IMG/VR virus record: IMGVR_UViG_3300017963_000225
Span: 27,635 to 91,634 of that record
Length of the DNA: 64,000 nt
Source of the DNA: a virus
Direction: 5' to 3' (one strand)
Shown here in pieces: positions 12,862 to 44,071 of this stretch (the first letter of the stretch is position 1; each line of letters opens with the position of its first letter). The position numbers and the translations under genes were made by a program. The notes beneath the pieces are model-generated. The model had not been told where the DNA came from. It saw only the letters and a list, made by a program, of their open reading frames with translations, and made no database searches.

Positions 12862-12865
12862 GAGT

Positions 12866-19080: not shown

Positions 19081-19938
19081 TCACCTCTTGGCATGATGTT
19101 TTGTGTGGTGGAAGTGAGCAGCATCGGCATGATCGGCCGCCAGCTTGGCGAACGCCCCAACGTGCTTACCCTTGCGCGACAAATGCTCCATCAAACTCAA
19201 CACAGCACTTGCCCGTTTGTGGTGAGCGTGCATGGCGTCAGCATGATCCTCGCGGCTAAAGCCCTTGTGGTGCTCGGCGTGCTTGTGGCTGTGGCGGTGG
19301 ATTTTCTTGCCGCTCTTTGTCTTGCCGACGTGTTCACGCGCCTTCTTCAGCTTAGCGCCAACGGCCAGGCCGAAGTGGTGATTCATTGCCTCGCGATGAT
19401 GCGCGATGACATTTGGGTGCGTCTCGGAGCCAAGCTTGGAGATATGAGCAGCATGGGCGCGGTATGCGTCCATGTGGTCGTGGGTTGAAAAACCCACGTG
19501 AGCCGAGCTGGATGGGTGCGACATGATTCGCTTGCCCGAGCGTGTCTGCCCGAGCGCGTGCTCGCCCTGGCTTTTGCGAGGCCGCATGACGCTGGTGCCG
19601 AGAGCTTTTTTGAAGTGGTCGCCAGACATGATGTGAAACTGACGCTTGGCTTCTCTGTCTTGCGAGCTTTTGCTTGGCGACGACCCCAGCTTTATCCCAT
19701 GCTCGTTGATGTGAGCCTTTATGCCGTTATTATGCGATTCAATCCCGCCAAGATCGGCGTGACTCCTTGCATGCGGCATGTTCTTGCCGTGAAGCAAATG
19801 CAAGCCAGCGGCATCAGCATGATCTTCTTTTGAAAACCCGGAGTATTCCCCCGGAGATTTTGCGCTGTAAACGTCCTTGCCGCTCCTGGTTGTCCCAAGT
19901 TTTTTTCCTAGACTTGATTTGCGAAGGAAAAATTTCAC
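19081..19938 (-). CDS. His-rich SGK/EDH repeat protein with N-terminal F-x-K tag
   Basis: A 285-residue protein starting at GTG 19938 that overlaps the upstream stop (GTGA). The N-terminus MKFFLRKSSLGKK resembles the [RK]F[LF]xK[AS] tag of the packaged head-module proteins. Three repeats follow: LGTTRSGKDVY...GFSKEDHADA, LGQTRSGKRIM...GFSTHDHMDA and VGKTKSGKKIH...GFSREDHADA, each followed by helices with many His (HAEHHKG, HHTKHHAKR). High His/Lys content suggests binding to DNA or metal. I have no experimental family for it; I infer a packaged or ejected virion protein. Confidence 0.6.
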   Translation of the reverse strand: MKFFLRKSSLGKKLGTTRSGKDVYSAKSPGEYSGFSKEDHADAAGLHLLHGKNMPHARSHADLGGIESHNNGIKAHINEHGIKLGSSPSKSSQDREAKRQFHIMSGDHFKKALGTSVMRPRKSQGEHALGQTRSGKRIMSHPSSSAHVGFSTHDHMDAYRAHAAHISKLGSETHPNVIAHHREAMNHHFGLAVGAKLKKAREHVGKTKSGKKIHRHSHKHAEHHKGFSREDHADAMHAHHKRASAVLSLMEHLSRKGKHVGAFAKLAADHADAAHFHHTKHHAKR

Positions 19939-27256: not shown

Positions 27257-28855
27257 TCAGGCTGGTCGATCAAGAAGAGGCTTCTTGATTTCGGTGCCGC
27301 CGACGTTGAGCCAAACCACGTTCACCCACGGACGCGGCACTTGCGGTGCCAGAACATGAGCGAACAGCTTGTTGGTATGCAGCCAACCAAGCTTGGCAAG
27401 GTCGAACTCGAAGAGGCCGGTGAGCTGGGCGAGCGCGACCGACGAGCGACCAACGGTGTACTCGTTGGTTGCCGAGGTCGGGACGCCGCCATCATCAATC
27501 GCTTGCGCGTTCGGCGAGTGGACATCAGATCCCCAAGCCCACGTCGTTCCCGGAATGTAGTCATCGCGATCGATGACGACGACCGGAGTCGTGTTGCCTG
27601 GAGCAATGCCGTTCGGGACCTCAAAAATGAAGACGGGATCGCGCAGGACCGGCTCCATAAAGGTGTCCGGCTGTGCAGGATCAGCAACGTATCCGCGATA
27701 GATGCGGAACGACTGCTCATCACCACGCGGGGTGATCGTGAACTCGATCGTCTTCCCTGCCTGCGCGTTGACGGCAGCGGACAGGTTGGAGGCGACCGAT
27801 TCGCCGACTTCATTGACGGCGGTCATGTAATAGACCATGCCGGTCAAGCGCTCGCCAGAAGAGGCGAACTTGCCGGTGCCGGCGACGTTGACGGCCGGTT
27901 GAGTGACCGAGCCGGCGCCAGCGCCGCCAAAGGTGAATGCCGACGGTGCGCCCGGAATGGCGACCGTGTTCGGACCGCCCGTCCGCACGAGAGACGACAG
28001 AGCGTTCTCACGGCGGAAATAGACGATGTTTCCGTTGACCTTCACGCCATCGACCGATTGGCCGATGATGAGGCCCTTGGTATTCGCCGCCGCAATGTTG
28101 CCCATCAGCGTGAAGCGCGCTGCGGGATCGAGGTTGGCCTCGATGTTCTCGGTCACTTCAGGAGCGCAATAGATGCGCTTCAGAACGCCGTGGCGCTTGT
28201 TGAAGGCGGTCGCCTGCGAGCGAATGCCCTTGGTGCCGTCCATCAGAAGCGGCTTGCCGCGCATGTCGATGAAAATGTCCGTGTTCGCAAATGGCACGGT
28301 GGCCAGCGGCGAGCGCGTCAATTCGTCGATGAGCTGCCAAACGCCTTTGAAGATGTTCGGGTCGGTCGAGAAGCGAGTGTCCGACTGGAAAAGCTCGACG
28401 TTGAGCTGGTACATCATGAGCAGGCGAACGACGAGATCGTTCGATGCCGCGATGTCCGGCTGTCCGAGCAGCTTCACCGTGTTTTGCAGCACGGTGAGGC
28501 CCTGGACGGCCGTCGTCTTGCCGTAGAGCTTGAGCTGGACTTGCTTCTTGGTTCCCTCGATGTTCGCCGAAGGCGGCAGCGAGTTTGGCGCGAACGCCAG
28601 CTTCGTCTTGTGGTTGCCGTAGCGATCAACCTGAGTGAACTCGTGGTTGACCTGCTGCGCTTGCTGCTTCGGAAGATCCTTGAGCAGCGTCATTTCTTGC
28701 CGGTCAGTCTCGGAATAAAGCTGGAGGTACGCTTCGTCCTCCAGGTCTTCCTTCATGAACGGCTGGATGCTGGTGCCGGTCGCCGAATCGACCGACAGTG
28801 CTTTACGCACGAGGTCGAGAATCTGCGCGTCGGCCATGTTTGAAGAATTCAACAT
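27257..28855 (-). CDS. Major capsid protein with FN3-like insertion
   Basis: A 532-residue protein. Start set at ATG 28855 behind AAGGAGGAAGG; the frame is also open to 28924. Order after protease and scaffold identifies it as the major capsid protein, and the length and domain pattern are consistent. Residues 300-420 look like an inserted FN3/Ig-type domain (GMVYYMTAVNEVGESVASN; EQSFRIYRGYV), probably surface exposed. Near the N-terminus is DLVRKALSVD, matching the hydrophobic-x-K-[AS] pattern found across this head module and offering a possible protease processing site. A terminator follows. Confidence 0.75.
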   Translation of the reverse strand: MLNSSNMADAQILDLVRKALSVDSATGTSIQPFMKEDLEDEAYLQLYSETDRQEMTLLKDLPKQQAQQVNHEFTQVDRYGNHKTKLAFAPNSLPPSANIEGTKKQVQLKLYGKTTAVQGLTVLQNTVKLLGQPDIAASNDLVVRLLMMYQLNVELFQSDTRFSTDPNIFKGVWQLIDELTRSPLATVPFANTDIFIDMRGKPLLMDGTKGIRSQATAFNKRHGVLKRIYCAPEVTENIEANLDPAARFTLMGNIAAANTKGLIIGQSVDGVKVNGNIVYFRRENALSSLVRTGGPNTVAIPGAPSAFTFGGAGAGSVTQPAVNVAGTGKFASSGERLTGMVYYMTAVNEVGESVASNLSAAVNAQAGKTIEFTITPRGDEQSFRIYRGYVADPAQPDTFMEPVLRDPVFIFEVPNGIAPGNTTPVVVIDRDDYIPGTTWAWGSDVHSPNAQAIDDGGVPTSATNEYTVGRSSVALAQLTGLFEFDLAKLGWLHTNKLFAHVLAPQVPRPWVNVVWLNVGGTEIKKPLLDRPA

Positions 28856-28869
28856 CGTAACCTTCCTCC

Positions 28870-29811
28870 TTACGCCATGGCTTTCGCGAGGACCGTTGCG
28901 TCGCCAGCACGGCCACGCTTCCACTCCTCGTGAGTGATTTTTCCTTCTGCCTTCGCCTTCATGAGTGCATTGCGCTGATCGCCAGTCACAATGCGCCCGA
29001 GTGCATCAGGCTGAGCAGAAACCTGGACTTGATCTTGCGACACCGCAGCGATTGCGGGCGCCATGCCGGCAACCTTCGGCATGCCAGGAAGTTGAGAAAT
29101 CGACTTCATCAGAGAGGTGTGCTCTCCGAGCGACTTCTCAAGGCGGTTTTGCTTCTCGATGACCGCCGTCAGCCCCTTTTGCAGGGAAATCAGCAGACGA
29201 TCGCGACGAGGATCGGCCAGCTCCGCGAGCAGCTCGCCGAAGGTGGCAACGCCAGAACGAAGCTCTCTGACGGACTTGCCGAGGTATTCCACGGCATCGC
29301 CCATGCCTTCGAGGAATTCGGTGGCATCGACGCCACCTTCGTCCGCATCGTCGTCATCGACGACCTGCTCGCTTTTCTTCATCTTCTTCTTGCCCTTGGA
29401 CTTGCCACGGCTGAAGAAGGCCGGCATGCCATCATCATCATCATCGTCGTCGTCGTCATCGGCGTCATCGTCGCCCTTATTGACGATTTTCGAGGAGTCC
29501 TGATAGCCCTGTCCCGACTTCTTCGGGCTCTTGGCCGGGTCGTCCTCGGTGGCAATCACCTGGGAGCCGCTTCGTCCTTTGGCATCCAAGGTGTTGTCAC
29601 TGCGCGGAGCGCCGTTGGCCTTGAAAAGAGCGCCGAGGCCCTCTTTCACGCCATCAACGATCGACTTGCGGATCAGGTCGGGAGTGACTTGCGCTCCAGC
29701 CTGATTTGCGTCCTGGCCGCCTTCGCCGCCAGTGTCACCTGCGGACTGATCCGCCGCAACTGCGGCGTCCATGTCCCGAATGGCTTTTTCAAGCAGATCC
29801 TCGTGGTCCAT
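28870..29811 (-). CDS. Scaffold-like acidic capsid assembly protein
   Basis: A 313-residue protein encoded between prohead protease and capsid, the usual scaffold slot. It is low complexity, with a run of about 15 Asp near residues 113-128 next to a Lys-rich block (SRGKSKGKKKMKKSE), then a coiled-coil region (EFLEGMGDAVEYLGKSVREL; LEKSLGEHTSLMKSI). It begins MDHEDLLEKAIRD and ends ATVLAKAMA, both including a hydrophobic-x-K-A site. This fits a scaffold cleaved by the protease and removed. AAGGAGG precedes the ATG. Confidence 0.65.
   Translation of the reverse strand: MDHEDLLEKAIRDMDAAVAADQSAGDTGGEGGQDANQAGAQVTPDLIRKSIVDGVKEGLGALFKANGAPRSDNTLDAKGRSGSQVIATEDDPAKSPKKSGQGYQDSSKIVNKGDDDADDDDDDDDDDGMPAFFSRGKSKGKKKMKKSEQVVDDDDADEGGVDATEFLEGMGDAVEYLGKSVRELRSGVATFGELLAELADPRRDRLLISLQKGLTAVIEKQNRLEKSLGEHTSLMKSISQLPGMPKVAGMAPAIAAVSQDQVQVSAQPDALGRIVTGDQRNALMKAKAEGKITHEEWKRGRAGDATVLAKAMA
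29430..29476. repeat. GAT/GAC trinucleotide repeat (poly-Asp)
   Basis: A run of GAT and GAC codons (read on the minus strand) encoding the poly-Asp segment of the scaffold-like gene. Possible slippage site; in frame. Confidence 0.7.
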
Positions 29812-29844: not shown

Positions 29845-30573
29845 TCAGCCAAACTTGGAAGCGAGGTAATTTTGTACCCGCAACCGAGCTTGGTCATGAT
29901 TGTCTCCGTACTTACTCATCGCGTGCTCGACAAGCCCGTCCTCAAGGCTTGTCGATGTCACCGAAGCGAGTGGCGAGAAGGCTTTCTCGTAAAACTCATC
30001 GCGACAAAGAACTGGCATCTGTTTCATGAGGGATTTGGCGAGAACTGACACGGTGCAATTTGGATTTACGGGCCGGAAGGTAAGAGCGATGTTGTAAACG
30101 ACGGCCTTTTGAACGTAGCGCCCGCATGGACTACGCTCCATGACCTTTCCCTCGATGGACTGACACAATCCGCGATTCGTCCCTGCTTTTCTGAGCTGGG
30201 TGTGCTGCTGAATCACCATGTCTGTCGAGTAGCCTTCCCAGATCGGGAGGCCCTTGATGATTCGGCCTTCACTAAACCACTTGCCATCCTGAAACCAAGC
30301 CTTCTTTCCCCACGGAACACCAACGGTGGCGTGTGGAATATGGTTCCAGTTGAAATCGCCGTGCTCCATAAACGGCGAGAAGTCCAACCCCTTCTGGAGT
30401 ATGACCTCTTTGTCCCGGTCTTTGTCTGGCGTCGAAGCAATACCCGTAAACGGATAGTATTTCGTGTCGCCTTGCTTTTGTTCGGACTTCAACATGAGCC
30501 CGTCGGGACAGAACGCAATGAAGGTCCCGTCACTCCTAACGTAAAGCCCATTGTCTTCGCCAACGTCGAACAT
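29845..30573 (-). CDS. Prohead serine protease (S78/HK97-type)
   Basis: A 242-residue protein with the HK97-type protease order: FTGIASTPDKDRDKEVI at 42-58, then the putative catalytic His in FNWNHIPH (His78), a loop, and the nucleophile in LCQSIEGKV (Ser139), followed by YNIALTFRPVNPNC. It would cleave scaffold and capsid proteins during maturation. Near residues 177-187 it carries VLAKSLMKQMP, matching the [hydrophobic]-x-K-[AS] pattern of its neighbours, which may be a self-processing site. It starts behind AGAGGTAGG and opens the block scaffold-capsid. A terminator separates it from the genes at 30.7 kb and above. Confidence 0.8.
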   Translation of the reverse strand: MFDVGEDNGLYVRSDGTFIAFCPDGLMLKSEQKQGDTKYYPFTGIASTPDKDRDKEVILQKGLDFSPFMEHGDFNWNHIPHATVGVPWGKKAWFQDGKWFSEGRIIKGLPIWEGYSTDMVIQQHTQLRKAGTNRGLCQSIEGKVMERSPCGRYVQKAVVYNIALTFRPVNPNCTVSVLAKSLMKQMPVLCRDEFYEKAFSPLASVTSTSLEDGLVEHAMSKYGDNHDQARLRVQNYLASKFG

Positions 30574-30983: not shown

Positions 30984-31799
30984 TCATTCGTCGTAGTCGA
31001 TGGACGGTGGCTTTTTGTGAACGCGCATAGCATTTCGCATGTAGGACTCGACGCCAGCCATGTTGACCTCGCCATCGTTTTTAAGCGCCATGCGCCGCAC
31101 GCAATAGTCAAACCACTTGGGGTGGTCACGGAAAAACGGCCGCGTGTGAGCCATCGATAGAGCTTTCCTGAGCGGCACCGTTGCGCCCTGCTTCTGCTCC
31201 ATCATGGTGCGGAATGCCTGATTGAAGCGGTCTAGCGCCTCATGCTCCATGCCGGACGGGCCGTGCTCATAAGCCTTCTCAATGATCGCTCGGCAAAGGC
31301 CCTTAAAGCCAGTGCGCGGCACTTCATGCAACCTCTCGACATTGCCGAGGATTTTGCGACAAGCGTAAAGCAGGTGAGCGATGGGTTTTTTGGCGCGGCG
31401 AAACTGCTCGCCCACCCAAGCATCGCGATCGGTTTGCGACAGCCCCTTCGTCTCATTCCTGAGACGAGCCGCCCAAACCTCTCCAGCCTCGTGTTCCTTC
31501 TTGACCTTCTCCCACTTGCCCTTGCCGCGCTTGATATAAGTGCCGTCGGCGCGCTTTCTGACCGTGCCGACCGGCAGCGCCCTGGCCTTCTCGATCAGGT
31601 CGAGCTTCGAGTAGTAGTCAGGGTCCTCGGCAAGATGGTCCATGGCGATTTCGCGCGCCAACGCCCGATCCTTCGTGTGCTCCAGCTCGTGCTTGGTCCC
31701 TCGCGCAAGCTGGCCAGCGTCAAAGTCGCTCGGCTTACGCTTGTCGGCCTTGCCGCCTGGCAGGCGATCTTTATAGCCGGCCTTGAGTAAAAACCGCAT
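30984..31799 (-). CDS. DUF5661-like polyvalent protein with tag and PVGT module
   Basis: A 271-residue protein beginning MRFLLKAGYKDR, the clearest form of the N-terminal tag. Residues 26-66 contain LARGTKHELEHTKDRALARE followed by IAMDHLAEDPDYYSKL, a motif I associate with DUF5661, common in phage head and polyvalent proteins. Residues 68-100 then repeat the tag and module found in the 1638-residue neighbour: LIEKARALPVGTVRKRADGT followed by YIKRGKGKWEKV. The helical C-terminal half (AHLLYACRKILGNVERLHEV) is unrecognised. The stop of the giant gene immediately precedes its start (TGA ATG). Likely a virion-packaged accessory protein. Confidence 0.65.
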   Translation of the reverse strand: MRFLLKAGYKDRLPGGKADKRKPSDFDAGQLARGTKHELEHTKDRALAREIAMDHLAEDPDYYSKLDLIEKARALPVGTVRKRADGTYIKRGKGKWEKVKKEHEAGEVWAARLRNETKGLSQTDRDAWVGEQFRRAKKPIAHLLYACRKILGNVERLHEVPRTGFKGLCRAIIEKAYEHGPSGMEHEALDRFNQAFRTMMEQKQGATVPLRKALSMAHTRPFFRDHPKWFDYCVRRMALKNDGEVNMAGVESYMRNAMRVHKKPPSIDYDE

Positions 31800-34700
31800 T
31801 CAGTCCTCCTCGTCCAGGCCGAGCGCCTTCTTGAGTTTTTTTCCGCCAACCGCTGTCTCAATAAAGACAAGCTCGTCCATTGCGCGAGTGTAGGCGACGT
31901 ACATAAGATTCTTCTCTTGCACTATCTCCCACGGCTTCTTTGCCATGCTAGACGGCATCAGGTGGTGGTTGAGGATAAACACACGCGGCGCCTCAAGCCC
32001 CTTGGCCTTATGCACCGAGGACAGGCGCAAAATGCTATCGCGTTTCTTGCCTTCGTCATCCTTGAACATCGATTCGATTTCACGCACGAGCCCGTCAACG
32101 TCCTTGGCCTGACTTTCCGCCATGAACACCGAAAGGGTTTCAAACTTGTCCTCAATCGCCGTTGTGTCGGCGTCGGGATCTTTGAGTTTGAGCTTGTTGA
32201 TTTCCCGCTTACTCCACTCGACCAGCTTACCTCCGAGGTCGTCGAGGCTCTTTGGCTTGAGCTTCTTAATGAGTGAGGTCATGCCCAAACCGATGTCACG
32301 CCCCATCACCTTGCACGGCACGCGCTCGCGCAGCAGCTTGTAGGCCATGCTGACCAGCGGCGCGTTGTTGCGGCAGACAATCATATCGGTCTGCTTGAAG
32401 TCCTCGATCTTGAACTTGGTGCCGAGGTCTTTGATCTCGCCTGGCTGAGCATCGGGACGCGGCTTGATGCCTGGAACGATTGTCTGAGCCAGCTCGATGA
32501 TTTTCTTGCCGCAGCGGTAGGAAATCGGCAGCTCGAACACCTTAGCGTTGAACTGCTTGCGGATCAGGTCGAGGCTCTCGGGGTTGGCACCACGGAAGCC
32601 GTAAATGGCCTGATGCGGGTCGCCGACCGCCACGACGCGCGTTTTGGTGTCGGTCGAACGCCGGATCGCCTCGCGCTGAATGTCGGACACGTCCTGCGCC
32701 TCGTCAACGAACAGAAAGTCGTACTTGGCCCAAGGCGTGTTGTAGATGATCGGCATATAGAACTGGTCGTCGAAGTCGATCACGTCCTTTTGCATAATGG
32801 ACTTCTCAAGCGCCAGGCGCGACAGGCGGATAGCATGCTCGACCGTCTGCGGGTAGTCGATTTCAATCGAGAAGTGCTCGATGAGATTTTCCCACTGCTC
32901 CCTGGTGTCGGGCACGAGCCCCTTGATGCCGTGTGCGGCAAGCGAGGCTGGCGCCAGGCCCATCTGCTTGGCCTTGGATACCATGCTTTTCACCGTCCCG
33001 AAGTATGTCTTGTCCTCGGGACCTTGCAGCATGTCGCGTAGGATAGCGCTGGTCTTGGTGCCCTTCTCGACCTTGACCCGGTTGTAGCCGCCCATGAAAC
33101 GCGCCCATGAGGCAAAGCCAAGCGCGTTGAGTGTCCGCACCGCCTTCTGATCGACAGCCCACTGCGGGACACGGCCGAGCAGCTCGTCGCGAGCCGAGGT
33201 GTTGAAGGCCAGGAAGATGATCGACTTGTCGCGTGGGATAACGTCGAGCGCCCGCACGATCGTGGCCGTCTTACCAGATCCGGCCTTAGCATCAATCATC
33301 GCGTTGCCGCTGCCCTTCTCGATCCAATCGAAAATCGCCTGCTGATATGGCGACGGCTTGAACGGTTTTTTTGGCTCATGTCCCGGAGCGTCTTTGGGCT
33401 CAGGATCGACCGGAACCTTGGGCTCGGGTTCTTGAGATGGCGGCGGCAAAACAACGGCGGGTTGCATGGTGGGAGCCTCCTGCTTAGGCGGCTCCTTCTT
33501 CGGAGCCGGTGGTTTTTCTGCGGGTTGTTTTACCGTGCCGGCCTCCTGTTGTCTACGCTTGGCCTTGGCCTTCAAAGCTTGCGTAACGAGGTCGTCAGGT
33601 TGTTTCTTCTTATCAAGCCTCTTGTCATCCCAAGCGACAGCTTCCTCGAACGTGACCTCGCGGCCGGCTTGTTTCATAAGCTTGGCCAGGTGACGCTTGG
33701 CCATCGCGATATTTTGCTGCTCCTCGCGCGGCGACGCCTCGCCGTCTCGTGACGTGCGCTCGGGCTCCAGCTCCAGGTGAGCGTGCCAAATTTTCTCCAT
33801 CAGCTCATCGCTGATCTCTTCCTTCTTTGACTTAGCCTTTTTTGGCTCAGCCTTCTTCTTCGGCTCGGGCTTGGCGGTGGCCTCGACGCGCTTCTTACCC
33901 TGCTCGTGCAGCAGGTCGTGGTAGCGCATCACCGTTTCATGGATCTTGCCGGCGGTCTTTTCCCAGCCGCTGTTCTTCCAGTCGTCGTCGCCGAACATTT
34001 CCGAAAAATACTCATGGTGATCGTCGGGGGAGGTCGAGTGCGGGTGAATGTCTTTCTTGTGAAGGTGATTGGCCCAATGCTTGACACCGGCTGTGAACTC
34101 TTTCTTGATCGCAGCGTAGTCCTTGCGTTTCTTGTAGCCACCGGCCTCAAGCGTCTTCTCGGCAAGGCGCGGCAGGTGCTCTTTCTGCCACTTGTGGTCG
34201 TCCACCTTGACGTAGGTGCCGTCTGCCCACTTGCGGCGGGTGCCGACCGGCGCCTTCCTGGCCTTGAAGAAAAACCGCACGAGCCCGCCTCGCGGCTCGA
34301 TAGCTGGCGGATCGACAAGCTTGATGCCGATCCGTGCGACGACAGCCTTCCTGATCTTGTCGTGCTTCAAAATGTACTCCATCAGCTCCGCGATGCGTTC
34401 TTTGTACTTCCAATCGGGAGCGTCCGCGTGTTTGGGGTCGTCCTTGGTGTAATAAAGCGCATGCGGCACGAAGTTGTCGATGTAGCTCTTGTCGATCTTG
34501 CCAGCGGCAATCAACTCCTCGGCCTTCACCAAGCCATACACCTCAAAGGCTCGCGCAAATACCTCGGTCGGCTTGTTCAAGTAAGCACTGAACGACTGTC
34601 CCATCATTTTGCCTTTGTGCGACCACTGGTAGTAGGGCGTCGAGCGCACTAGCTCCAGCATCTCTTTGTACTTGGCCTTCAGCTCAGGATCGCTGGCAAT

Positions 34701-36716
34701 GGCGGCCGAGCGCGGCGTGCTGTCAGTTCCCTCGTGCATGGCATAGTCGATGGCGTGTCCAAGCTCATGGATCATCGACTTGGAGTCGCTCGTGAAGTCG
34801 TGGATCTCCACCGACAGCTTGCCATGCCAGTAGGTGGCAGCCGCACGGGAGGCGCGCTTGCCCAGCCGGGCGTTCACCCGGAAGTGCAGCGGCCGGATGA
34901 AACGCACCCCCATGTGATCCATGATGATGTTGGTCTGCTTAATCATTTGCAGGATGCGGAAGCGCTGATCCTTGTTCGTCTTGGCCAGATCAACGCTACG
35001 GATCATGTTGGTGCGCGCCTGCACGGCGTCGTTGACCTCGGGCGGTATTTCGCCCGACAGCAGCGGGTAGTCCTTCTTGGTGCCCTCTCCCAGCTCGTAG
35101 CCGGCCTGGTGCGCGGAGTAGGCCAGCGCTTGGTGGCGCAGCGCGTACTCCTTCTTGAGCCGCAACATCGCCTTGCGGCGGCGCTCATGCTCCTGCAAGG
35201 ATGCGCCGCTTTCCGCCTGATCGCGCTCGAAGTGATCTCCGGCGCTCCTGGGCTGATCGTCGAGCCCGAAGGCGGCACGCACGTACCACTGATCCTTCTC
35301 GATGTGACGGATGACCGCCAGCATCTCGTCCACCCATTTTTTCTTGGGCATCAGGTGGGCGTTTACTTCGAGCTGGTTGTGCTTCAGCCACCACTTCTTG
35401 GCTTCCTTCGCCTCGGCCTCACTGCCGAACGAGCCGACCGTGTTTTTGCGGTCCCTGCCGATCGAAACCAAGTCGAAAATGCCAGGACGATCCTCGCCGC
35501 CGAGGCCGACGCCGCTATGGATTTCATACGTGCGCTCGCGCTCGGCCATGCCACCTCGCTTGAGGCCCTTGGCCCTCTTGTGGCCCTCGTGCTTCAAAAA
35601 CCCGTAATAGTTTTTGACGATGGTATGCACGGTGTCGGCGGTCTTCTGCCAGCCGCTCTTATGCCACTCGGGGTCGTCGAACACCTCGGCCCAATGCTCA
35701 TGGTGCTCATTTGGCTTGGTGTGCTCTGGGTGCTGGTCGTTGGCGTGCAGGTAGTCGGCCCAATCGGATGCTGCCCGCACAACTTCCTTTTGGATCTCTT
35801 TGAAATCCTCGCGCTTGGCGTGACCGTGGTCCTTGAGCGCCTTCACCGCTAGTTTCTTTACCGTCTCGCGATGCCAGTTGTGGTCATCGACCTTGACGTA
35901 AACCCCATCAGCCCAGGTGTGGCGCGTGCCGACCGGAACTTTCTTTGCTTTGAAGAGGAAGCGCACCGAGGCTTCTCCTTTCTTGAGGCTGCCTCGATGC
36001 TCCAGCTCGGCCTTGAGCGAAGCAAGCATAGCCTCGTGTGACTTAATGGCAAATTCGCTTTGCATGCCCTCGATCTTGGTGATCCGCTCCTTAATCGCCT
36101 GCTCGTCGAGGTGAGCATACTTGCGGCCGACGCCGCGCACGTCGAACAGCGTGCCGATCTCGATCTCAAAGTCTTCCTGGGCGTGCTTCTTGCCGTTGAG
36201 CGACTTGTCGTTGTATTTGCGGAAGCCGCCCATGTCGAGCAGCTTGAGGTTTCCATCGCCGTCGCGGGCAAATTGCAGCTTGTCCCACGGGTAATAGCCC
36301 TCCTTGCGGAAGATGCGCCACAGCTCGTCGCGCACCGCCTCGGGCTCGCCGCGCTTGAGGTCGCTCATTTCGATCGGCTTCAGGTGCTCACGCGCCAGAA
36401 ACAGCTTCTTGCCCTTGCGCCACGTCGCGTAGTGCTTCGGAATGAGCGAGCTGCCGGCAAGATCCTTGAGCGCGTTGTGCTCCAGCATGAGGTCGTCGCG
36501 GGCACCCTTGGGCGTTTTCTTCGGAGCGTGACGCGCCTGGAAAGGCGCCTGCTTGGACACCTTGACGGCCACGTCGCCGATCGGCTCGACCTTGGCGTGA
36601 AAGACATGCCCTTGATGGCCATGGCCGATGTACTTCCATTTGCCGTTGGCGATCTTCTGCCAGTCGCCATGCACAGTGCCGATCGGCACGGCCTTAGCTT
36701 TCAACAGAAACATCAT
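31800..36716 (-). CDS. Polyvalent fusion: kinase-like, metallopeptidase, UvrD-like helicase
   Basis: A 1638-residue protein in three tagged modules. Residues 1-250 begin MMFLLKAKAVPIGT and carry a kinase-like fold: Gly loop GHGHQGHVF (31-39), VAVK (Lys52) and DMGG (Asp161) in place of DFG; no HRD is visible, so it may be inactive. Residues 251-812 begin VRFLFKAKKVPVGT and contain a zinc site HELGH (650-654), with Glu718 in KPTEVFARAFE as a likely third ligand. Residues 813-1638 begin VRFFFKARKAPVGT and hold a UvrD-like SF1 helicase with AKAGSGKT (1143-1150), VDEAQD (1337-1342), AVGDPHQAIYGFRG and VAYTRAMDEL. Modules 2 and 3 share a duplicated ~130-residue segment. It lies in the head operon, so packaging and injection are inferred, as for P1 DarB and polyvalent proteins. 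Confidence 0.75.
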   Translation of the reverse strand: MMFLLKAKAVPIGTVHGDWQKIANGKWKYIGHGHQGHVFHAKVEPIGDVAVKVSKQAPFQARHAPKKTPKGARDDLMLEHNALKDLAGSSLIPKHYATWRKGKKLFLAREHLKPIEMSDLKRGEPEAVRDELWRIFRKEGYYPWDKLQFARDGDGNLKLLDMGGFRKYNDKSLNGKKHAQEDFEIEIGTLFDVRGVGRKYAHLDEQAIKERITKIEGMQSEFAIKSHEAMLASLKAELEHRGSLKKGEASVRFLFKAKKVPVGTRHTWADGVYVKVDDHNWHRETVKKLAVKALKDHGHAKREDFKEIQKEVVRAASDWADYLHANDQHPEHTKPNEHHEHWAEVFDDPEWHKSGWQKTADTVHTIVKNYYGFLKHEGHKRAKGLKRGGMAERERTYEIHSGVGLGGEDRPGIFDLVSIGRDRKNTVGSFGSEAEAKEAKKWWLKHNQLEVNAHLMPKKKWVDEMLAVIRHIEKDQWYVRAAFGLDDQPRSAGDHFERDQAESGASLQEHERRRKAMLRLKKEYALRHQALAYSAHQAGYELGEGTKKDYPLLSGEIPPEVNDAVQARTNMIRSVDLAKTNKDQRFRILQMIKQTNIIMDHMGVRFIRPLHFRVNARLGKRASRAAATYWHGKLSVEIHDFTSDSKSMIHELGHAIDYAMHEGTDSTPRSAAIASDPELKAKYKEMLELVRSTPYYQWSHKGKMMGQSFSAYLNKPTEVFARAFEVYGLVKAEELIAAGKIDKSYIDNFVPHALYYTKDDPKHADAPDWKYKERIAELMEYILKHDKIRKAVVARIGIKLVDPPAIEPRGGLVRFFFKARKAPVGTRRKWADGTYVKVDDHKWQKEHLPRLAEKTLEAGGYKKRKDYAAIKKEFTAGVKHWANHLHKKDIHPHSTSPDDHHEYFSEMFGDDDWKNSGWEKTAGKIHETVMRYHDLLHEQGKKRVEATAKPEPKKKAEPKKAKSKKEEISDELMEKIWHAHLELEPERTSRDGEASPREEQQNIAMAKRHLAKLMKQAGREVTFEEAVAWDDKRLDKKKQPDDLVTQALKAKAKRRQQEAGTVKQPAEKPPAPKKEPPKQEAPTMQPAVVLPPPSQEPEPKVPVDPEPKDAPGHEPKKPFKPSPYQQAIFDWIEKGSGNAMIDAKAGSGKTATIVRALDVIPRDKSIIFLAFNTSARDELLGRVPQWAVDQKAVRTLNALGFASWARFMGGYNRVKVEKGTKTSAILRDMLQGPEDKTYFGTVKSMVSKAKQMGLAPASLAAHGIKGLVPDTREQWENLIEHFSIEIDYPQTVEHAIRLSRLALEKSIMQKDVIDFDDQFYMPIIYNTPWAKYDFLFVDEAQDVSDIQREAIRRSTDTKTRVVAVGDPHQAIYGFRGANPESLDLIRKQFNAKVFELPISYRCGKKIIELAQTIVPGIKPRPDAQPGEIKDLGTKFKIEDFKQTDMIVCRNNAPLVSMAYKLLRERVPCKVMGRDIGLGMTSLIKKLKPKSLDDLGGKLVEWSKREINKLKLKDPDADTTAIEDKFETLSVFMAESQAKDVDGLVREIESMFKDDEGKKRDSILRLSSVHKAKGLEAPRVFILNHHLMPSSMAKKPWEIVQEKNLMYVAYTRAMDELVFIETAVGGKKLKKALGLDEED
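33888..34280 (-). repeat. Internal duplicated tag and VDDH module, copy B
   Basis: Residues 813-943 of the giant protein: tag, PVGT, ADGTYVKVDDHKW, a helical segment and HHEYFSEM...SGWEKTAGKIH. It begins at GTG 34280 with a weaker GAGGCGGG upstream. It aligns with copy A over its full length, indicating duplication followed by fusion with the helicase. Confidence 0.75.
35562..35966 (-). repeat. Internal duplicated tag and VDDH module, copy A
   Basis: Residues 251-385 of the giant protein: tag, PVGT, ADGVYVKVDDHNW, a helical segment and an HxEHW...SGWQKTADTVH block. It begins at GTG 35966 with AAGGAG about 9 bases upstream, as though it were once or still is a separate start. Copy B lies at 33888-34280. 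Confidence 0.75.
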
Positions 36717-36973
36717 GACTCTTCGCTTTCATAATCCTGGAAAACCATCCTGCTTCCCTTCAGGTGATAAATTTTCCCGTCTTTATGAATGTAAATTTTT
36801 CCGCCAACATCCAAGGTCGCCGAAGGATGATCGCCGCCAACCATCCAGCGACCGCCCTCCTTGTGCGCGGTCGTCTCCGTCGATGTCCCATCTTTCCAGT
36901 AAATTTTCGCTCGATGCTTCCGAGGCTGCTTGTCTTTTGCGCCCTTCGTCCTCGACTTGAAAAAAAACTTCAT
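36713..36973 (-). CDS. Small tagged head-module protein
   Basis: An 86-residue protein beginning MKFFFKSRTKGAKDK, another clear copy of the tag. The body is beta-rich (AKIYWKDGTSTETTAHKEGG; YIHKDGKIYHLKGSRMVF) and highly charged. It overlaps both neighbours by 4 bases, so it is translated with the MuF-like gene upstream and the giant polyvalent gene downstream. Likely packaged with them; function unknown. Confidence 0.65.
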   Translation of the reverse strand: MKFFFKSRTKGAKDKQPRKHRAKIYWKDGTSTETTAHKEGGRWMVGGDHPSATLDVGGKIYIHKDGKIYHLKGSRMVFQDYESEES

Positions 36974-38010
36974 AAAGACACCTTCCTGAGTGAGTTTTTA
37001 GACATGGCTTGCTTGACCGTCTCACGCACAGCGGCCCGCACGTTGCGCGACAGCGGCACAGTCGCCAGCACGTCCGAAGGCTCGCCGGGAATCAGCACCC
37101 ACCAATCGGTCATCTGCTTGAAGCCCATAAACTCGGTCAGGTATTTGATGCCCGCACCTGTAGGCCAAAAATCAGGCATGCCGAGCACAATAGGCATCAC
37201 TTCCAAAATTTTGGTGACGTATTCGTCGAAACTGCGGGCCTGACGAAAGCGCACCTCGCGCAGGTGCGGCACGTCAAGCGGCGAGCGGTCGTAGTAGCGC
37301 GCCCCGCGCACCTGGCCGGGGCTCAAGAGCTGGTAGAAGGGCTGGCTCACGCGGCCGTGTCCGTGACGCGCCAGCGTGTAGCCATCCTGCTCGTCAACGA
37401 CGACAAGCGGCATCGCCATCAGGACCGCACGTATTACGGCGCGTCCCGTGACGCTGCTCGCGTCTACCCAAGCGGCGCCGGTGCTTACCTCTGGGCGATA
37501 GTCCGTTCCCTCCATGACACGCCGCACCCATCCGAAGGGCAGCACGCGCTCGGCCTTGGTCAGCTCGGGCAGCTTGTCACTCATCCACACCCCACACTTG
37601 CAGTTAGGATGCAGAGCGCCTTGCATCCACGGCTTTACCTGCTTCACGCGCCAACGGCGCGGGCGACCAGGAGGTCCGAATATTTTGGCGCAAGAATCGC
37701 AACAATCCGACGTACTGCGATAGACGATGCCATTCGGCCCTACAGCCGACGCCAATAGCTCGAAGCTGCTTTTACCGCGAGCATTGGTGATCTCGGTGCG
37801 AAGCACTCGCCCCCAATCGCGCTTGTCGGTTTTGGTGCCGGCCTGGCGCTTGAGCTGCTTTTCGGCGCCAAAGGGCGTCAGGTCGCGTCGAATAGCGTCC
37901 GAAACGATGCGGCGCACGCTGGCCAGCCGTTTCTTACCGATCTTGGTGATGAGGCCGCCGCCCTCCTCCTCGGCTTCAAGGGCAGCCAGCTTGGTTGCTA
38001 TGGTCGGCAT
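36970..38010 (-). CDS. MuF-like minor head protein with Cys motif
   Basis: A 346-residue protein. Residues 60-150 carry the MuF pattern: helices then RVLRTEITNARGKSSFELLA, a strand, DCCDSCAKIFGPPGRPRRW and HPNCKCGVW, where Cys/His pairs could bind zinc. MuF-type proteins sit at the portal vertex and in Iyer's polyvalent scheme often co-occur with effector domains. The C-terminal half (YKQMTDWWVLIPGEPSDVLA-like region) is unrecognised. It is encoded between the SNF2-like helicase and the giant polyvalent gene. Start follows a stop by 3 bases. Confidence 0.6.
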   Translation of the reverse strand: MPTIATKLAALEAEEEGGGLITKIGKKRLASVRRIVSDAIRRDLTPFGAEKQLKRQAGTKTDKRDWGRVLRTEITNARGKSSFELLASAVGPNGIVYRSTSDCCDSCAKIFGPPGRPRRWRVKQVKPWMQGALHPNCKCGVWMSDKLPELTKAERVLPFGWVRRVMEGTDYRPEVSTGAAWVDASSVTGRAVIRAVLMAMPLVVVDEQDGYTLARHGHGRVSQPFYQLLSPGQVRGARYYDRSPLDVPHLREVRFRQARSFDEYVTKILEVMPIVLGMPDFWPTGAGIKYLTEFMGFKQMTDWWVLIPGEPSDVLATVPLSRNVRAAVRETVKQAMSKNSLRKVSL

Positions 38011-38013
38011 GAC

Positions 38014-41000
38014 TCACTCCTCATCGCCTTCGATATGATGGCGAACGCCATTATACCCGCGCTGGTTTTCCTGGAACATCGCCGCCGCTGAAAGAAGCAC
38101 CTTCTTTGTCTTGGCGCTTGCCTTCTCGCCTAGCTTTTTCTCAAGAGCCGGCCAGAAACTGTCGGCCTCCTTCGGATTTGCCACGTCGCCGTCGCCTAGG
38201 TGGTCGAGCTGGCGCGAGCCAAGGTGCTTCACCATGTCCTTCAGGTGCTCGCCCATGTGCTTTTTGATCTTGGCGTCGGACTTGATGCCGTGCGTGTTGA
38301 GGGCCGCCTCGACAGCCGACTCGTGGTCTTGGTCCTTGTGCGGAGTATGCGCCTTCCCTGAAGCCCAGCGATCCACCGTGTCGCGCATCGCCTTCTTGGT
38401 GCCATCTGTGAGCTTCTCTTTGTGCTTCTTCTCGTACTCGTTGACATACGAGCTGAAGAGAGCGTCAGTCACCTTCTTGCCCTTGCCCTTCGCTGCCTCG
38501 TGACGCGAAGCAAGCTCGACAATGTGCGGCATGATGCTTCCTTCGATGCCACGATCAAAAAGCAGGTGGTGGTCCTTCTTTCCACGCGAGCGCAAGTGAT
38601 CGCGAAAGTGCCCAAGCAGGCCGTCTTTCTCAGAGTCCTCAACCGTGCCGCTGCCGACGACACCGCCAGCATACTGCTGATAGCCGGGCTGGCCGTGCAT
38701 GGCCTGCGCCTGCTCGCCACCGATCGGCGCGGCCGTCGATCGCTTGTACTGCGGATCGCCGTCCTCGCCGGTGTACTTCTTCGCGTATGCCTTCCCTTCC
38801 TCGTGCTGGAACTGAAGGATCTTCTGCCCCAGCTCGTGGTACTTCGGAAGGATTTCAGACTTGCGCATTCCCCTGATGTTTTCGAGGTTAAGCGTGATCG
38901 CCGTCTCGGTGTCGGTGTCGTCCATGTCCGAAACGATCATCATGTTCGTGTGAAGCTTCGCCATGAGGCGCACGTACTTCGTCACGTCCATCGTGTCGTC
39001 AACAAGGCCCAAGTGAATGTTGACGGGCTTGTCTTGGCCGAAACGCCAGATTCGCGCGTAAGACTGCTCCTGCGTGCCAGGCGAGTAGTGGTGATCGTAA
39101 CGGTACATGCCGTTGGCGATTTGCAGGTTGACGCCCTCCGTGACCGACTGATCGACGGCGACGATGATCTGCGGTCCCTTGGGGTCGTTCTGGAAGTCCT
39201 CAAGCTCCTTCTTGTGCGAGGCGTCGTAGTAAATCGCCTTGCTTTTCAGGTGCTCTGGCATGTGGTCGAGAACGTGCTGGGCGCTCATGCGGCGCTGGCA
39301 AAACACAATAAACTTGCCGTTCTTGGGGTCCTTGAAGTGCTCGTCGAGCTTCGCATAGAGGTCGGTCGCCTTGGGGCTGACCTTGCCCTTCAAGGCGCGG
39401 ATCGCCTTGCGCGTGTCGGGTGACAGCTTCGACAGAAGGTCGATCGCCTCCTGCTTCTCGGCCTCAAGCTCGGCCGCCGCGTCCCCTCTTAGCTCTGCCT
39501 TGATCGCCCGCGCAGCGGCACGAGTCCCGCCGAGGGTGGATATCGCTTTCTCGACCGTCTCGGCCAGTGTGTCGGGATGGTCCGTGATGCCCATAAGCAC
39601 GTTGAATTTGCTCATGAACGCCGGCTTCGCATCGCCTTCGCTGGGAAGGAAGTCCTCGCTCTCGTCCCCGACACCGCTCTCCTCCAAAATCTGGGAGATC
39701 ACGTCGTCGAGCGCCGTCTCGTACACGCCCTGCGTCGTCGCGTCGTGCTTGACTACGGACATATGCTCGTTGCGCTGCGGCAGCTTGTCGATCCATGCCG
39801 AGCGCCGGATGCTCACAAGCCCCATGCGCTGCAAATCTTCGCGCAGCTTCTTCAGGCCGTCGCGGGACCACTTCACCGACTTCGGCCCGCGCCCCTTGCC
39901 CTTGTTGCCCTTGCCGCCGCCTACCACCGCCCCGAAAGCCGCGTTGCCTTCCAAGCCCTTCGCGGCGCCGCCCTCGTGCCCATAGGCTTCCTTGAACTGC
40001 TTTTCGGTCCAGTTGACGTAGGGGTGCAGAAACTTGAGCTGGCCGATGGCATCGAGCGGGTTGTTGGAGATGAACGTGCCAGACGCCACGCGCTTGTACT
40101 TGATGCCGCTAAGGTGCTGCACCGCCTTGAATCGTGACGTTTCCGTCGTCTTGATCCGGTGCGACTCGTCGAGGGCAACGTAGTCGAAACCCGAGGCGCT
40201 CAGGCGCTTGGCGTTGGCGTAGTCGTCGGAGCCCTTGGGCTTGTAGGAGACAAAATCGTAGCCGGCCATGAAGATGGTGTTGGGTGGAGCCTCGTCCATC
40301 GCCTGCATCATGGCTTCCAGATCGCCCTTGAAGTCATCCTTGAGCGTCTTGGCGCTCATTTTGAACACGTTGACGCGACCCTCGGTGTACTTCTCGGCCG
40401 TCAGCTTGGCGTTCTGGTCGAGCGTGTTGGTCGGCACGACGATCAGCGGCTTCTTGATCTTGCCTTTCGCCATGAGGTTGAGGGCATCGGCCGGCAGGAT
40501 GAGCCCCTTGCCGCCGCCCATGTCCACGTCCACCATGGCGTTGGTCAGGCCGTCGAGCTTGGCGAGCGTCTCGGCTTGGTGCCCGAAAAACTTGATCGAC
40601 GACGAAAGAGCTGGGATATGCGGGCAGTCCTTAGGGCCAAGGTGTGCGACCTTTCCAGCCTCGTCAAAAATCCTCTTCACGTCCTCGATGGCGTGCTCGG
40701 AGTGCTCGCCCATCAGCTTGCCGAGCGCCTGCTCGTGCGTCCCGCGCATCTCTGGATCGGACGCCACATCGTCAAAGAAATCACGCAGCACCGGGTCCTT
40801 GTGCGTGTACGCCTGGGCATACGTCGTCACGTCGCCGTGTGTGTCGTTCAGGTGCTTGGCAATCTTAGACACATGGTTTTTGTATATCCAGAAATCGGCT
40901 CCCAACTCGTTACGAAACCTTGGCGTCGGCGATTCTTTCTCCGCTTCGAGAATCTCGTCGAGGAAGGCGTCGTAGTCTTTGATGCCCTTGGAGCGCTGCC

Positions 41001-41331
41001 AAATTTCCCGCGCGTGCTCGTCGGGCCGGTAAACGCCGTTCAAAAACCGCGACTTCTCATCGTGGTTCATTTCGCCTTTGTGCTTGAACACGTCAGGCGC
41101 AACGGCCTTGCCCTTTGTCCTCAACGACTGCCATCTCTTCGGCATCACCGTCGTCGATTTGTCGTCGGAGTGAATCACCTTGCCGGCGAACGTGCCTGGG
41201 TCCTTCTTCGCCTGATCGCGCTTGTCCTGGTGCTGGTCGATGTAAACCAGGCTGCCGTTGGGAAGATGGCGGTAGTGCGCCTTGACGGCGCGCGACTTGA
41301 TGAGCGCATTAGGTCCGAAATAAAGCCTCAT
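38014..41331 (-). CDS. SNF2-like helicase, putative virion-packaged (DarB-like)
   Basis: An 1105-residue protein. It begins MRLYFGPNALIKSRAVK and then YRHLPNGSLVYIDQHQ, a diverged version of the tag plus ADGxYVKVDDH module. From about residue 245 it has SF2 helicase motifs: MVDVDMGGGKGL (motif I), LIVVPTNTL (Ia), LDESHRIK (II, 387-394), RVASGTFI (III), then a C-terminal RecA-like lobe with FIVFCQRRMSAQHVL and a VI-type segment QSYARIWRFGQDKPVNIH, which together indicate the SNF2/RapA family. The C-terminal 250 residues are charged and unrecognised. It lies between portal-region genes and MuF, so I infer it is loaded into the head; P1 DarB is an SF2 protein injected with DNA. Confidence 0.75.
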   Translation of the reverse strand: MRLYFGPNALIKSRAVKAHYRHLPNGSLVYIDQHQDKRDQAKKDPGTFAGKVIHSDDKSTTVMPKRWQSLRTKGKAVAPDVFKHKGEMNHDEKSRFLNGVYRPDEHAREIWQRSKGIKDYDAFLDEILEAEKESPTPRFRNELGADFWIYKNHVSKIAKHLNDTHGDVTTYAQAYTHKDPVLRDFFDDVASDPEMRGTHEQALGKLMGEHSEHAIEDVKRIFDEAGKVAHLGPKDCPHIPALSSSIKFFGHQAETLAKLDGLTNAMVDVDMGGGKGLILPADALNLMAKGKIKKPLIVVPTNTLDQNAKLTAEKYTEGRVNVFKMSAKTLKDDFKGDLEAMMQAMDEAPPNTIFMAGYDFVSYKPKGSDDYANAKRLSASGFDYVALDESHRIKTTETSRFKAVQHLSGIKYKRVASGTFISNNPLDAIGQLKFLHPYVNWTEKQFKEAYGHEGGAAKGLEGNAAFGAVVGGGKGNKGKGRGPKSVKWSRDGLKKLREDLQRMGLVSIRRSAWIDKLPQRNEHMSVVKHDATTQGVYETALDDVISQILEESGVGDESEDFLPSEGDAKPAFMSKFNVLMGITDHPDTLAETVEKAISTLGGTRAAARAIKAELRGDAAAELEAEKQEAIDLLSKLSPDTRKAIRALKGKVSPKATDLYAKLDEHFKDPKNGKFIVFCQRRMSAQHVLDHMPEHLKSKAIYYDASHKKELEDFQNDPKGPQIIVAVDQSVTEGVNLQIANGMYRYDHHYSPGTQEQSYARIWRFGQDKPVNIHLGLVDDTMDVTKYVRLMAKLHTNMMIVSDMDDTDTETAITLNLENIRGMRKSEILPKYHELGQKILQFQHEEGKAYAKKYTGEDGDPQYKRSTAAPIGGEQAQAMHGQPGYQQYAGGVVGSGTVEDSEKDGLLGHFRDHLRSRGKKDHHLLFDRGIEGSIMPHIVELASRHEAAKGKGKKVTDALFSSYVNEYEKKHKEKLTDGTKKAMRDTVDRWASGKAHTPHKDQDHESAVEAALNTHGIKSDAKIKKHMGEHLKDMVKHLGSRQLDHLGDGDVANPKEADSFWPALEKKLGEKASAKTKKVLLSAAAMFQENQRGYNGVRHHIEGDEE

Positions 41332-41636
41332 TTCGGCTCCTCCCGGCTGACGTGCAGCATTCCGTCGTCTCCGACATAAAACCAGCCAAGGTCGGTGGCC
41401 TCGTCAACAAGGCTCGTGTAGTCCCACTCGGGATGCGCGGCCTTCATCTTATGCATCACCCACTCGAAGGCTTTAAGCTCGTCGCCGCTCATCGGCCTGC
41501 GCGCCTGGCGCAGCTCGAAAGGATGCAAGTGGTAGTCGGTGATGCCGCCTTGCAGCTCGTCGTTCTCGTCGATCGGCTGACGCTGGCCGCTGCCGTCGTC
41601 GTCCTGCGATTTATGAAACCAGTTTAGAATGCTCAT
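41328..41636 (-). CDS. Small uncharacterised head-module protein
   Basis: A 102-residue acidic protein (MSILNWFHKSQDDDGSGQRQ). The start is set at ATG 41636 because GAGGTGAC precedes it; a GTG one codon earlier is possible. It overlaps the SNF2-like gene start (AAATGA). Contains WxxxHKM and YVGDDGMLHV segments but no known motif. Confidence 0.5.
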   Translation of the reverse strand: MSILNWFHKSQDDDGSGQRQPIDENDELQGGITDYHLHPFELRQARRPMSGDELKAFEWVMHKMKAAHPEWDYTSLVDEATDLGWFYVGDDGMLHVSREEPK

Positions 41637-42016: not shown

Positions 42017-42330
42017 GCCGTCTCCTCCGAGATGCGCTTCACGTCCATCGCTACTGGCCCCTCGTGGTTTTTGCCGACGTAAAACTCCACCGCGTCCCCT
42101 TCGGCAAGCGACTTGAAGCCACGTTGAACAATAAATTTGAAATGCACGAAGAGGTCTTTGCCATTCAGCGCGCGCTGAAGCTCCAGGTCGTCGGGCTTGA
42201 TATATCCGAAGCCGCGCTGCGCGTTAAACCACTGGACGCGGCCTTTAAGCCTTCTTCTTGCGTTGAAGTGAGGCAATTCTCTGGACGAACTCGTCGTCTG
42301 ACTCATCTCTGCGCTGCGGTCCCCGTGCAT
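42013..42330 (-). CDS. Cold-shock-domain protein overlapping portal 3' end
   Basis: A 105-residue protein. The CSD begins RLKGRVQWFNAQRGFGYIKP (RNP1-like) then DLFVHFKFIVQRGFKSLAEG and PVAMDVKRI, a full single-domain cold-shock fold that binds RNA or ssDNA. The start was set at ATG 42330 because GAGGAAGA lies 6 bases upstream; the open frame reaches 42582 and a second ATG lies at 42306. The start lies within the portal gene in another frame, an overlap of 86 bases. In phages such proteins may regulate RNA or be packaged; its lack of the head tag argues against the latter. Confidence 0.7.
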   Translation of the reverse strand: MHGDRSAEMSQTTSSSRELPHFNARRRLKGRVQWFNAQRGFGYIKPDDLELQRALNGKDLFVHFKFIVQRGFKSLAEGDAVEFYVGKNHEGPVAMDVKRISEETA

Positions 42331-44071
42331 TTGATTCTTCCTCGTCGTCCTGTTGCCCATCATCATCGCCGCCGCCGCCGTCGCCGCCGTCATCGTTGCC
42401 CTCATCGCCGCCTTGAGCTTGACCCTGAGCGCCTGGCTGAGCTGCTTGCGCCTGCATTTGTTGTTTCTGCATTTCCATCTGTTGCTTAGCCTGGAGCGCT
42501 TGCGCGACGATCGGATTGGAAACCACGTCGCCACCCTGCTCGGGCGGCAACGGATCAAGCCCCTGCTCCTGGCGCATCTCATTGACGGTCACAAATGTTG
42601 CCTTGGCCGTCGTGATTTGGATCGACTCCATTTCATTCTGGCCATAGTCCCACTCCATCGTCAGATCAGGATGGATGCGCTCAAGAATCGGGTCAAAAAC
42701 CGTCGTCTTGTAGTGCTGAAGACAACTTTCGAGCCCTTGCTCCTGGCTCATCTCGATTTGCGTAGCCTGAGACGCCTGATTCAGCGATCCCCGGTTGTCT
42801 CCAGCTCGCGGCGCCTCGTTAATTTCGCTTGGGTGCATGCGAAAAACAGCGCAAGCCAGGTTCGTCAATTTCTGGATGTAGACATCGAACAGCATGTCGC
42901 GATGATTTTGTCTGGTAGGAATAACACTGAGGTCATCCTTACCATTCGGCAGCGCAACGACCGGCAATCTAAACATTCCCGCGATGCCGCTCATGTTGGT
43001 CGCGAGGATGTTCGTAAAGTCGGTAATGTGTTTGTCGTTCCACTGACCGCGAATGCCGATGATTGTCTCGGCCATGTTGCCAAACTCAAAAAACCTTTGG
43101 TTGGCTGTCATGGCGAGAATTTCGGCAAGGATCGTGAAGATGGACCGCTCAAGCATCGAGCGTGGATAGCCAGCCTTCGTCACGTCCGTTGTCGGCATGG
43201 TCGGCGCGACGATAATTTCGTCGTGCCTGAATGCGGCTGTTGGCCGCCCTTGTAGAATGTAAATGTACTGCGTCTTCTCATCGACGCTGATCTGGTACTT
43301 GTCGGCAATCATACCTAGCGTTGACTTCCAAGCAGCATAGTTCGTCGCGAAGTCTTTCGGAAACTCGCGATTCACGGTGCTGATATATTTCACCGCCGCA
43401 AATGTCGGGATCACATTTGCACCATCAATCGCTCCGAACGCCCGAGGCGTGCGGTTTGGATCAAGCCCAAGCTCAATACATGGGCGATTGATTACCAGAA
43501 GATCCTCAGTAATTTTCTGAAGGAAGCCCGACATATTTGGCTCGATTTCGTCGTAAACGACGCCCTCGCTCCAATAAACCTTCCACGGCTTCATCAAAAA
43601 TTCTTCGACCTCTCGGCAGAAGACATTGAATTCTTCCGGGACCTTAAATTTAGAATCCGCATGACGTTTGTGGACAACCTTGAAGCCAACGTCGCCCTTC
43701 TTTGCGCCCTGCGAGCGCCGAGAAAAACGCTGCACTTGATGCAGGCGAGTGCTCACAATTGCACTAAGCAGCGGCGACCTCTCGCTAACTTGCCGAAGCG
43801 TGGCGAAGTTGAGCGTGCCTTTCTTCTGGCCAAGGTTGTTAGTGTAGCCCTTGGGATATCCGCCGAACATGGTGGCTGATCCAGTCATGTATTGTTCGGC
43901 TATCCGTGGCGCCTGCGGACCAAGACCAAAGGCAAGTAGCTTGATAACCTCATCAAGCGACGGCCCTTGTTGGCGAGACGGCGCCTGCTCCGTCTGCGGC
44001 ACTCCTGGAATCATTCCCGCCATGCCCATACCAATAGGTACTAACCCTTGATGATCGTCATTATCTGCCAT
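42245..44071 (-). CDS. Portal protein
   Basis: A 608-residue protein. The opening RQVSERSPLLSAIVSTRLHQ is a portal pattern, followed by crown and stem-like regions (NVIPTFAAVKYISTVNREFP; IFTILAEILAMTANQRFFEF). The C-terminus is a Gln/Gly/Asp-rich low-complexity tail (QMQAQAAQPGAQGQAQGGDE) and a basic end. It directly follows TerL and precedes the MuF and polyvalent genes. The dodecameric portal forms the DNA entry channel. Length is typical. Start near GAGGG. Confidence 0.8.
   Translation of the reverse strand: MADNDDHQGLVPIGMGMAGMIPGVPQTEQAPSRQQGPSLDEVIKLLAFGLGPQAPRIAEQYMTGSATMFGGYPKGYTNNLGQKKGTLNFATLRQVSERSPLLSAIVSTRLHQVQRFSRRSQGAKKGDVGFKVVHKRHADSKFKVPEEFNVFCREVEEFLMKPWKVYWSEGVVYDEIEPNMSGFLQKITEDLLVINRPCIELGLDPNRTPRAFGAIDGANVIPTFAAVKYISTVNREFPKDFATNYAAWKSTLGMIADKYQISVDEKTQYIYILQGRPTAAFRHDEIIVAPTMPTTDVTKAGYPRSMLERSIFTILAEILAMTANQRFFEFGNMAETIIGIRGQWNDKHITDFTNILATNMSGIAGMFRLPVVALPNGKDDLSVIPTRQNHRDMLFDVYIQKLTNLACAVFRMHPSEINEAPRAGDNRGSLNQASQATQIEMSQEQGLESCLQHYKTTVFDPILERIHPDLTMEWDYGQNEMESIQITTAKATFVTVNEMRQEQGLDPLPPEQGGDVVSNPIVAQALQAKQQMEMQKQQMQAQAAQPGAQGQAQGGDEGNDDGGDGGGGDDDGQQDDEEESNARGPQRRDESDDEFVQRIASLQRKKKA

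Follow-up and report, generated by a model that had tools for sequence, protein, structure and literature searches.

The analysed window is a 64,000-nucleotide stretch of phage DNA, positions 27635-91634 of the 91,634-bp IMG/VR record IMGVR_UViG_3300017963_000225, which comes from environmental DNA. Its head operon runs from the terminase gene (44075-45856) to the gene for the major capsid protein (MCP; 27257-28855); all window features described here lie on the minus strand. Between the genes for a minor-head-like protein (36970-38010) and the prohead protease (29845-30573), an open reading frame (ORF) of 1638 amino acids (aa) occupies positions 31800-36716 without an internal stop. The original prediction, made from the sequence alone, had given exactly this uninterrupted frame and had divided it into three modules, each preceded by a short tag and a PVGT block. 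We located the tags at aa 1-7 (MMFLLK↓A, followed by KAVPIGT; 36696-36716), aa 251-257 (VRFLFK↓A; 35946-35966) and aa 813-819 (VRFFFK↓A; 34260-34280), where the arrow marks a predicted cleavage position. Thus, every module opens with a tag of the form [M/V]-x-F-[F/L]-[F/L]-K-A and a header block P[VI]GT...G...K...W. An assembly error as the source of the long ORF was rejected, since there is no stop and no frameshift, and the GC content at third codon positions is similar across the modules.

The C-terminal ~500 aa are certainly a superfamily 1 (SF1) UvrD/Dda-like helicase by sequence, as had been proposed. The domain (aa 1117-1620; 31857-33368) matched phrog_1967 (E 6e-100), Pfam UvrD-helicase (1e-19) and UvrD_C (5e-14), and its core is full, with Walker A GSGKT at aa 1146 (33267-33281) and Walker B DEAQD near aa 1336. 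Module 2 carries the HELGH motif (aa 650-654; 34755-34769) and a candidate third zinc ligand, E718 (E718VFARAFE; 34563-34565). Profile matches in this region remained below the curated cut-offs (LPD1, E 0.008; lethal-factor zincin, 5e-4; PHROG peptidase, 6e-4). The proposed HELGH metallopeptidase is probable, and we describe it as a zincin-type metallopeptidase (MPTase). In module 1 (aa 7-250; 35967-36698), a glycine-loop, VAVK and LLDMGG-like motifs are visible. AlphaFold (AF2) models from single sequences, the structure prediction that had been suggested for the modules, gave unusable folds, with mean confidence (pLDDT) values of 40 for module 1 and 44 for the zincin region. Since module 1 had no Pfam kinase match at E up to 10, no PDB match and no usable fold, its proposed identity as a kinase was not confirmed and is based on motifs.

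The MCP of this phage provides a reference for the tags. Its N-arm reads ILDLVRK↓ALSVDSATGTSIQPFM, and the predicted cleavage site, LVRK↓ALSVDSATG (28799-28813), matches in form and place the arm of the HK97 MCP, which the prohead protease cuts at K103/S104 (PMC10275583). A search motif was derived from this arm (two hydrophobic residues, any residue, K, then A or S), and 23 sites were found in the 59 window proteins. The motif was 11 times as frequent in the head-operon proteins as elsewhere (18 sites in 4635 aa, versus 5 in 14161 aa; p 1e-7), and the enrichment held (p 1e-5) when the tagged ORFs that had suggested the motif were omitted. Seven of the 59 genes have it within the first 25 aa; the mean of shuffled sequences was 0.94, and none of 3000 shuffles reached 7. 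On these statistics, a chance repeat was rejected. The tags of the 1638-aa ORF (FLLK↓A, FLFK↓A and FFFK↓A) are instances of the same motif, and they thus have the form expected of this phage's predicted prohead-protease site, hydrophobic..K↓[A/S]. A membrane or secretion signal was rejected because the tag has just 5-6 hydrophobic residues.

The motif recurs in the neighbouring head genes. The protease (phrog_1028, E 3e-30) has four candidate sites, LMLK↓S and three more. The probable scaffold (28870-29811), located between the protease and the MCP, also has four (aa 9, 49, 179 and 310). Such repetition is as expected for proteins that would be digested in maturation. The motif opens an 86-aa gene (MKFFFK↓S; 36713-36973), a 271-aa gene (MRFLLK↓A; 30984-31799) and, among the small genes between the portal (42245-44071) and an SNF2 helicase, a gene of ~102 aa (MSILNWFHK↓S; 41328-41636), whose relative in L040 has LDWLAK↓A in the matching place. 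The SNF2 helicase (1105 aa; 38014-41331) begins with a near-match, NALIK↓SRAVKAHYRHLPNG. Outside the head operon, the tag VKFFLRK↓S starts a 285-aa His-rich protein (19081-19938). In an alignment of eight headers, the K and the G..G..K..W block are common to all.

The 271-aa gene is, by sequence, a fusion of two units, each of which relatives encode in a tagged ORF of its own. Its first half, the tag followed by DUF5661, matches a stand-alone 105-aa DUF5661 protein of L042, itself tagged (HDWIFK↓A). Homology to a stand-alone L019 protein begins at the internal unit LDLIEK↓ARALPVGT (aa 68 versus aa 2 of the L019 protein), where the internal tag spans aa 66-72 (31584-31604). Judged in the same way, tagged units are also joined in frame in related phages. 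In G010, a 1717-aa InPase-helicase contains QHMLK↓S exactly where the stand-alone helicases of L021, L023 and Mecenats66 begin, with 41-54% identity to them over long stretches, and in a 442-aa protein the position of ETMAK↓S corresponds to the start of stand-alone tagged Nudix proteins in L037 and Mecenats66. The chance of K↓[A/S] near all three junctions is ~1e-5. One further ORF of G010 has two headers.

To obtain relatives, a profile scan was performed, which gave eleven IMG/VR loci; later scans added three further close contigs. Relatives chosen by terminase (Lana, PMBT3, UAntarctica, Achromobacter 2-1 and SHOU24) have a different head module and were uninformative. Among named phages, only Mecenats66, a Morganella phage, has a similar MCP. 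M-x-K↓[S/A] occurs in its MCP, at six places in its scaffold, and at the N-termini of its protease and its 1371-aa helicase. Genome-wide N-terminal enrichment in Mecenats66 was weak (7 genes against a mean of 2.8; 27 of 1000 shuffles reached 7), and therefore the argument there rests on these specific sites. Among the IMG/VR relatives, K↓[A/S] recurs at the MCP arm, the protease N-terminus, the scaffold, the minor head protein and the helicase N-terminus. Twort and vB_EalM-132, two herelleviruses with related proteases, also have such sites. The nearest helicases in named phages are stand-alone, ~500 aa long, untagged and outside the head operon.

Headers like those of the 1638-aa ORF open separate ORFs in L019, L020, L040 and L042. 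In L020, tag and header start ORFs of 529 aa (NLFK↓AKAAQVGEKRKW), 324 aa (GIVMK↓AKELPAGTIVRRADGWYQK) and 395 aa, the last PAPS-reductase-like (FLFK↓SRVGRPIGT). The L020 helicase has its own ORF of 907 aa, which carries no tag and has a GTGA overlap with the 324-aa ORF; the counterparts of these two ORFs are joined in L042 as one 1751-aa ORF. As a separate observation on helicases, the UvrD-like helicase L020:3572-6295 and the SNF2 helicase L033:1-3489 (-) of the related phage G002 contain apparent inteins at the Walker B DE motif, which start with C and end with HN followed by C or S. A GY.L.G..RWHK-like header was also seen in long proteins at L037:7366-11499 (-), L036:11731-15324 (-) and L011:22805-26521 (Mecenats66 ORF50). 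Regions of these proteins resemble a kinase and an ADP-ribosyltransferase by eye; the L037 protein had no Pfam match.

A 134-aa segment occurs in both module 2 (35571-35972) and module 3 (33885-34286), with 49% identity and an E value of 4e-41, in agreement with the predicted duplication of about 130 residues. Within it, 24 of 32 header residues are identical, versus 41 of 100 in the rest. The nonsynonymous divergence (dN) is 0.14 in the header and 0.53 in the rest, with a synonymous divergence (dS) of ~1.5. Since the header is more constrained than the remainder, selection has maintained the internal tags. GTG is the first codon of both, and each is preceded by a strong Shine-Dalgarno sequence, AAGGAG 8 nucleotides before tag 2 (35975-35980; -8.7 kcal/mol) and a Shine-Dalgarno-like stretch before tag 3 (-7.8 kcal/mol). 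Ranked against 577 internal ATG/GTG codons, these energies fall in the best 0.5% and 1.4%. The ORF's own start has the weakest Shine-Dalgarno sequence of 36 genes (-1.8 kcal/mol). In the best reading, the internal sites would mark old gene starts.

From these results, we suggest, with moderate confidence, that the 1638-aa ORF is an in-frame fusion of separately tagged virion-cargo proteins, in which the tags are cleavable prohead-protease sites. Three proteins, each with an N-terminal head-targeting tag ending in a prohead-protease site, would have become joined in frame. The tags would bring the chain into the prohead core alongside the scaffold and the protease, and the protease would probably cut it after Lys6, Lys256 and Lys818. 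The predicted products are a 28.5-kDa module (possibly kinase-like), a 64.7-kDa zincin and a 93.0-kDa SF1 helicase, each of which would begin with A-[K/R]-x-x-P[V/I]GT, be retained in the head and pass into the host along with the DNA. The packaging, targeting, ejection and enzymatic roles of the three units are those that we infer from their sequences. Fusion of three once-separate proteins, as originally predicted, is well supported by the separate tagged ORFs in relatives, the GTG/Shine-Dalgarno sites and the 271-aa fusion, with the kinase-like and zincin ancestors not seen. For the suggested splitting by the prohead protease, the indirect support is strong, since the tags look like the sites predicted in the MCP, the scaffold and the protease.

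Several points weigh against this interpretation. The K↓[A/S] specificity of the protease is a deduction. For module 1 and for the zincin, named phages and the fetched loci gave no relative. Searches of named phages and profile searches of viral contigs gave none for module 1, module 2 or the duplicated segment, and a peptide-pattern search of viral and genome contigs gave no close homologue of the whole ORF. Because relatives of the kinase-like and zincin modules were not found, their separate ancestors are deduced from the tags. In L042, the header-plus-helicase ORF (L042:957-6212) has at aa 793-825 a header block, AAIGEIHEWKDGWYEKVGPGEW, that is not preceded by a K↓[A/S] tag. Given this second header, block and tag may be separable, with the block forming a small domain. 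Finally, the internal Shine-Dalgarno/GTG sites are also compatible with internal translation.

Internal translation is the main, serious rival; we regard it as unlikely, and it may coexist with cleavage. If ribosomes also initiated at the GTG of tag 2 and at that of tag 3, nested products of 1638, 1388 and 826 aa would result, each N-terminally tagged without a need for proteolysis; the strength of the two internal sites, beside the weak start of the ORF itself, speaks for this reading. The same sites may be fossils of fusion, however, and module 1 would stay joined to modules 2 and 3 and so have no separate form. Moreover, the 271-aa gene keeps K↓A in its internal tag even though no start codon is present there. 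More doubtful still is an uncut polyvalent protein, packaged whole and injected as one enzyme chain, with the three tags as docking points on the scaffold or capsid. P1 DarB (250 kDa) and the N4 virion RNA polymerase are indeed packaged whole (PMC9024508, PMC5512222), but the tags look like predicted protease sites, and docking would not need the K↓[A/S] that is conserved at the MCP, scaffold and protease sites of relatives. Self-processing by the probable HELGH zincin of module 2 at sites other than the tags, for which the MPTase-domain model of Iyer et al. (PMC5512222) is a published precedent, is improbable, because it gives no account of why each module, and also genes that lack a zincin, should open with the tag.

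If cleavage of fused, tagged cargo is correct, the tag would be a readable address label, and sequence alone would suffice to predict the injected proteins of this group, by means of the K↓[A/S] tag and the header block. Tailed phages would gain a trans-processed polyprotein mechanism, replacing or besides embedded zincins, and the origin of large polyvalent proteins by gene fusion would be explained. Being short and portable, the tag could also be used as a signal to load proteins into HK97-type heads. We give about even chances to a polyprotein strategy of tailed phages, in which virion cargo enzymes are encoded in one ORF, each unit with a cleavable head-targeting tag, and are freed in trans by the head-maturation protease, and in which the tagged units fuse and split from one related phage to another as interchangeable beads.

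Other features of the record were also noted. The 285-aa His-rich protein, distant from the head operon, has three LGxTxSGKxxY...GFSxxDHxDA repeats and is a candidate further cargo protein. ARAGORN predicted a tRNA-Ser with anticodon ACT at 12864-12938, which is unusual in bacteria and their phages and may be a misprediction. In the left part of the record, L003:12395-13973 and L004:651-2221 encode proteins with CxxCH haem-binding-like motifs and a YceI-like protein, which are odd for a phage; these could be auxiliary genes or flanking host DNA.

Among known systems, the closest by domain content and context are the polyvalent proteins, known from phages and conjugative elements, with which the 1638-aa ORF belongs on its sequence. 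As described by Iyer et al. (2017, PMC5512222), these combine disparate enzyme domains in one chain, a zincin with kinase, helicase, InPase or Nudix partners, and are encoded among portal, terminase and head genes. The 1638-aa ORF has at least two disparate catalytic domains, the SF1 helicase (certain) and the zincin (probable, from HELGH plus EVFARAFE), and lies in a head/packaging context. Polyvalent zincin, kinase or helicase proteins were already known. Iyer et al. liken polyvalent proteins to polyproteins released by embedded zincins; the passages of their paper considered here mention neither a repeated targeting tag nor a prohead-protease site that separates the units.

The tag is comparable to the capsid targeting sequence (CTS) of the T4 internal proteins and Alt and to the propeptides of giant phages (PMC5694885), short N-terminal peptides that direct proteins to the prohead and are removed by the prohead protease. 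Here too, a short N-terminal peptide ending at a predicted protease site is common to several putative head-cargo proteins. T4 gp21 cuts after E, and T4 proteins have one N-terminal tag each, whereas the present tag ends in K↓[A/S], is shorter and is repeated within one chain. It may therefore act like a CTS, yet it differs from the T4 signal. In P1, DarB and DarA (PMC9024508, PMC12810830) resemble our case as SNF2 helicase-type cargo with an N-terminal packaging signal, and the DarA N-terminus is cut by the protease Pro; the authors of that work found no tag consensus common to the Dar proteins, and there are no concatenated tagged units. The K103/S104 cut of the HK97 MCP has the same form as the predicted MCP site here, and concerns the capsid scaffold domain, not injected cargo. 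Mecenats66 and the IMG/VR loci L019-L029 and L040-L045 share the head-operon order, the K↓[A/S] sites, tagged helicases, Nudix proteins and other cargo, and some two-unit fusions, without a three-unit ORF or relatives of the kinase-like and zincin modules. We found no paper on repeated prohead-protease tags within a cargo ORF in a partial coverage of the literature, which is weak evidence of absence. Compared with these systems, the novelty in the sequence lies in a tag that recurs along the chain and places a prohead-protease-like site between the units, together with the demonstrable fusion of tagged units.
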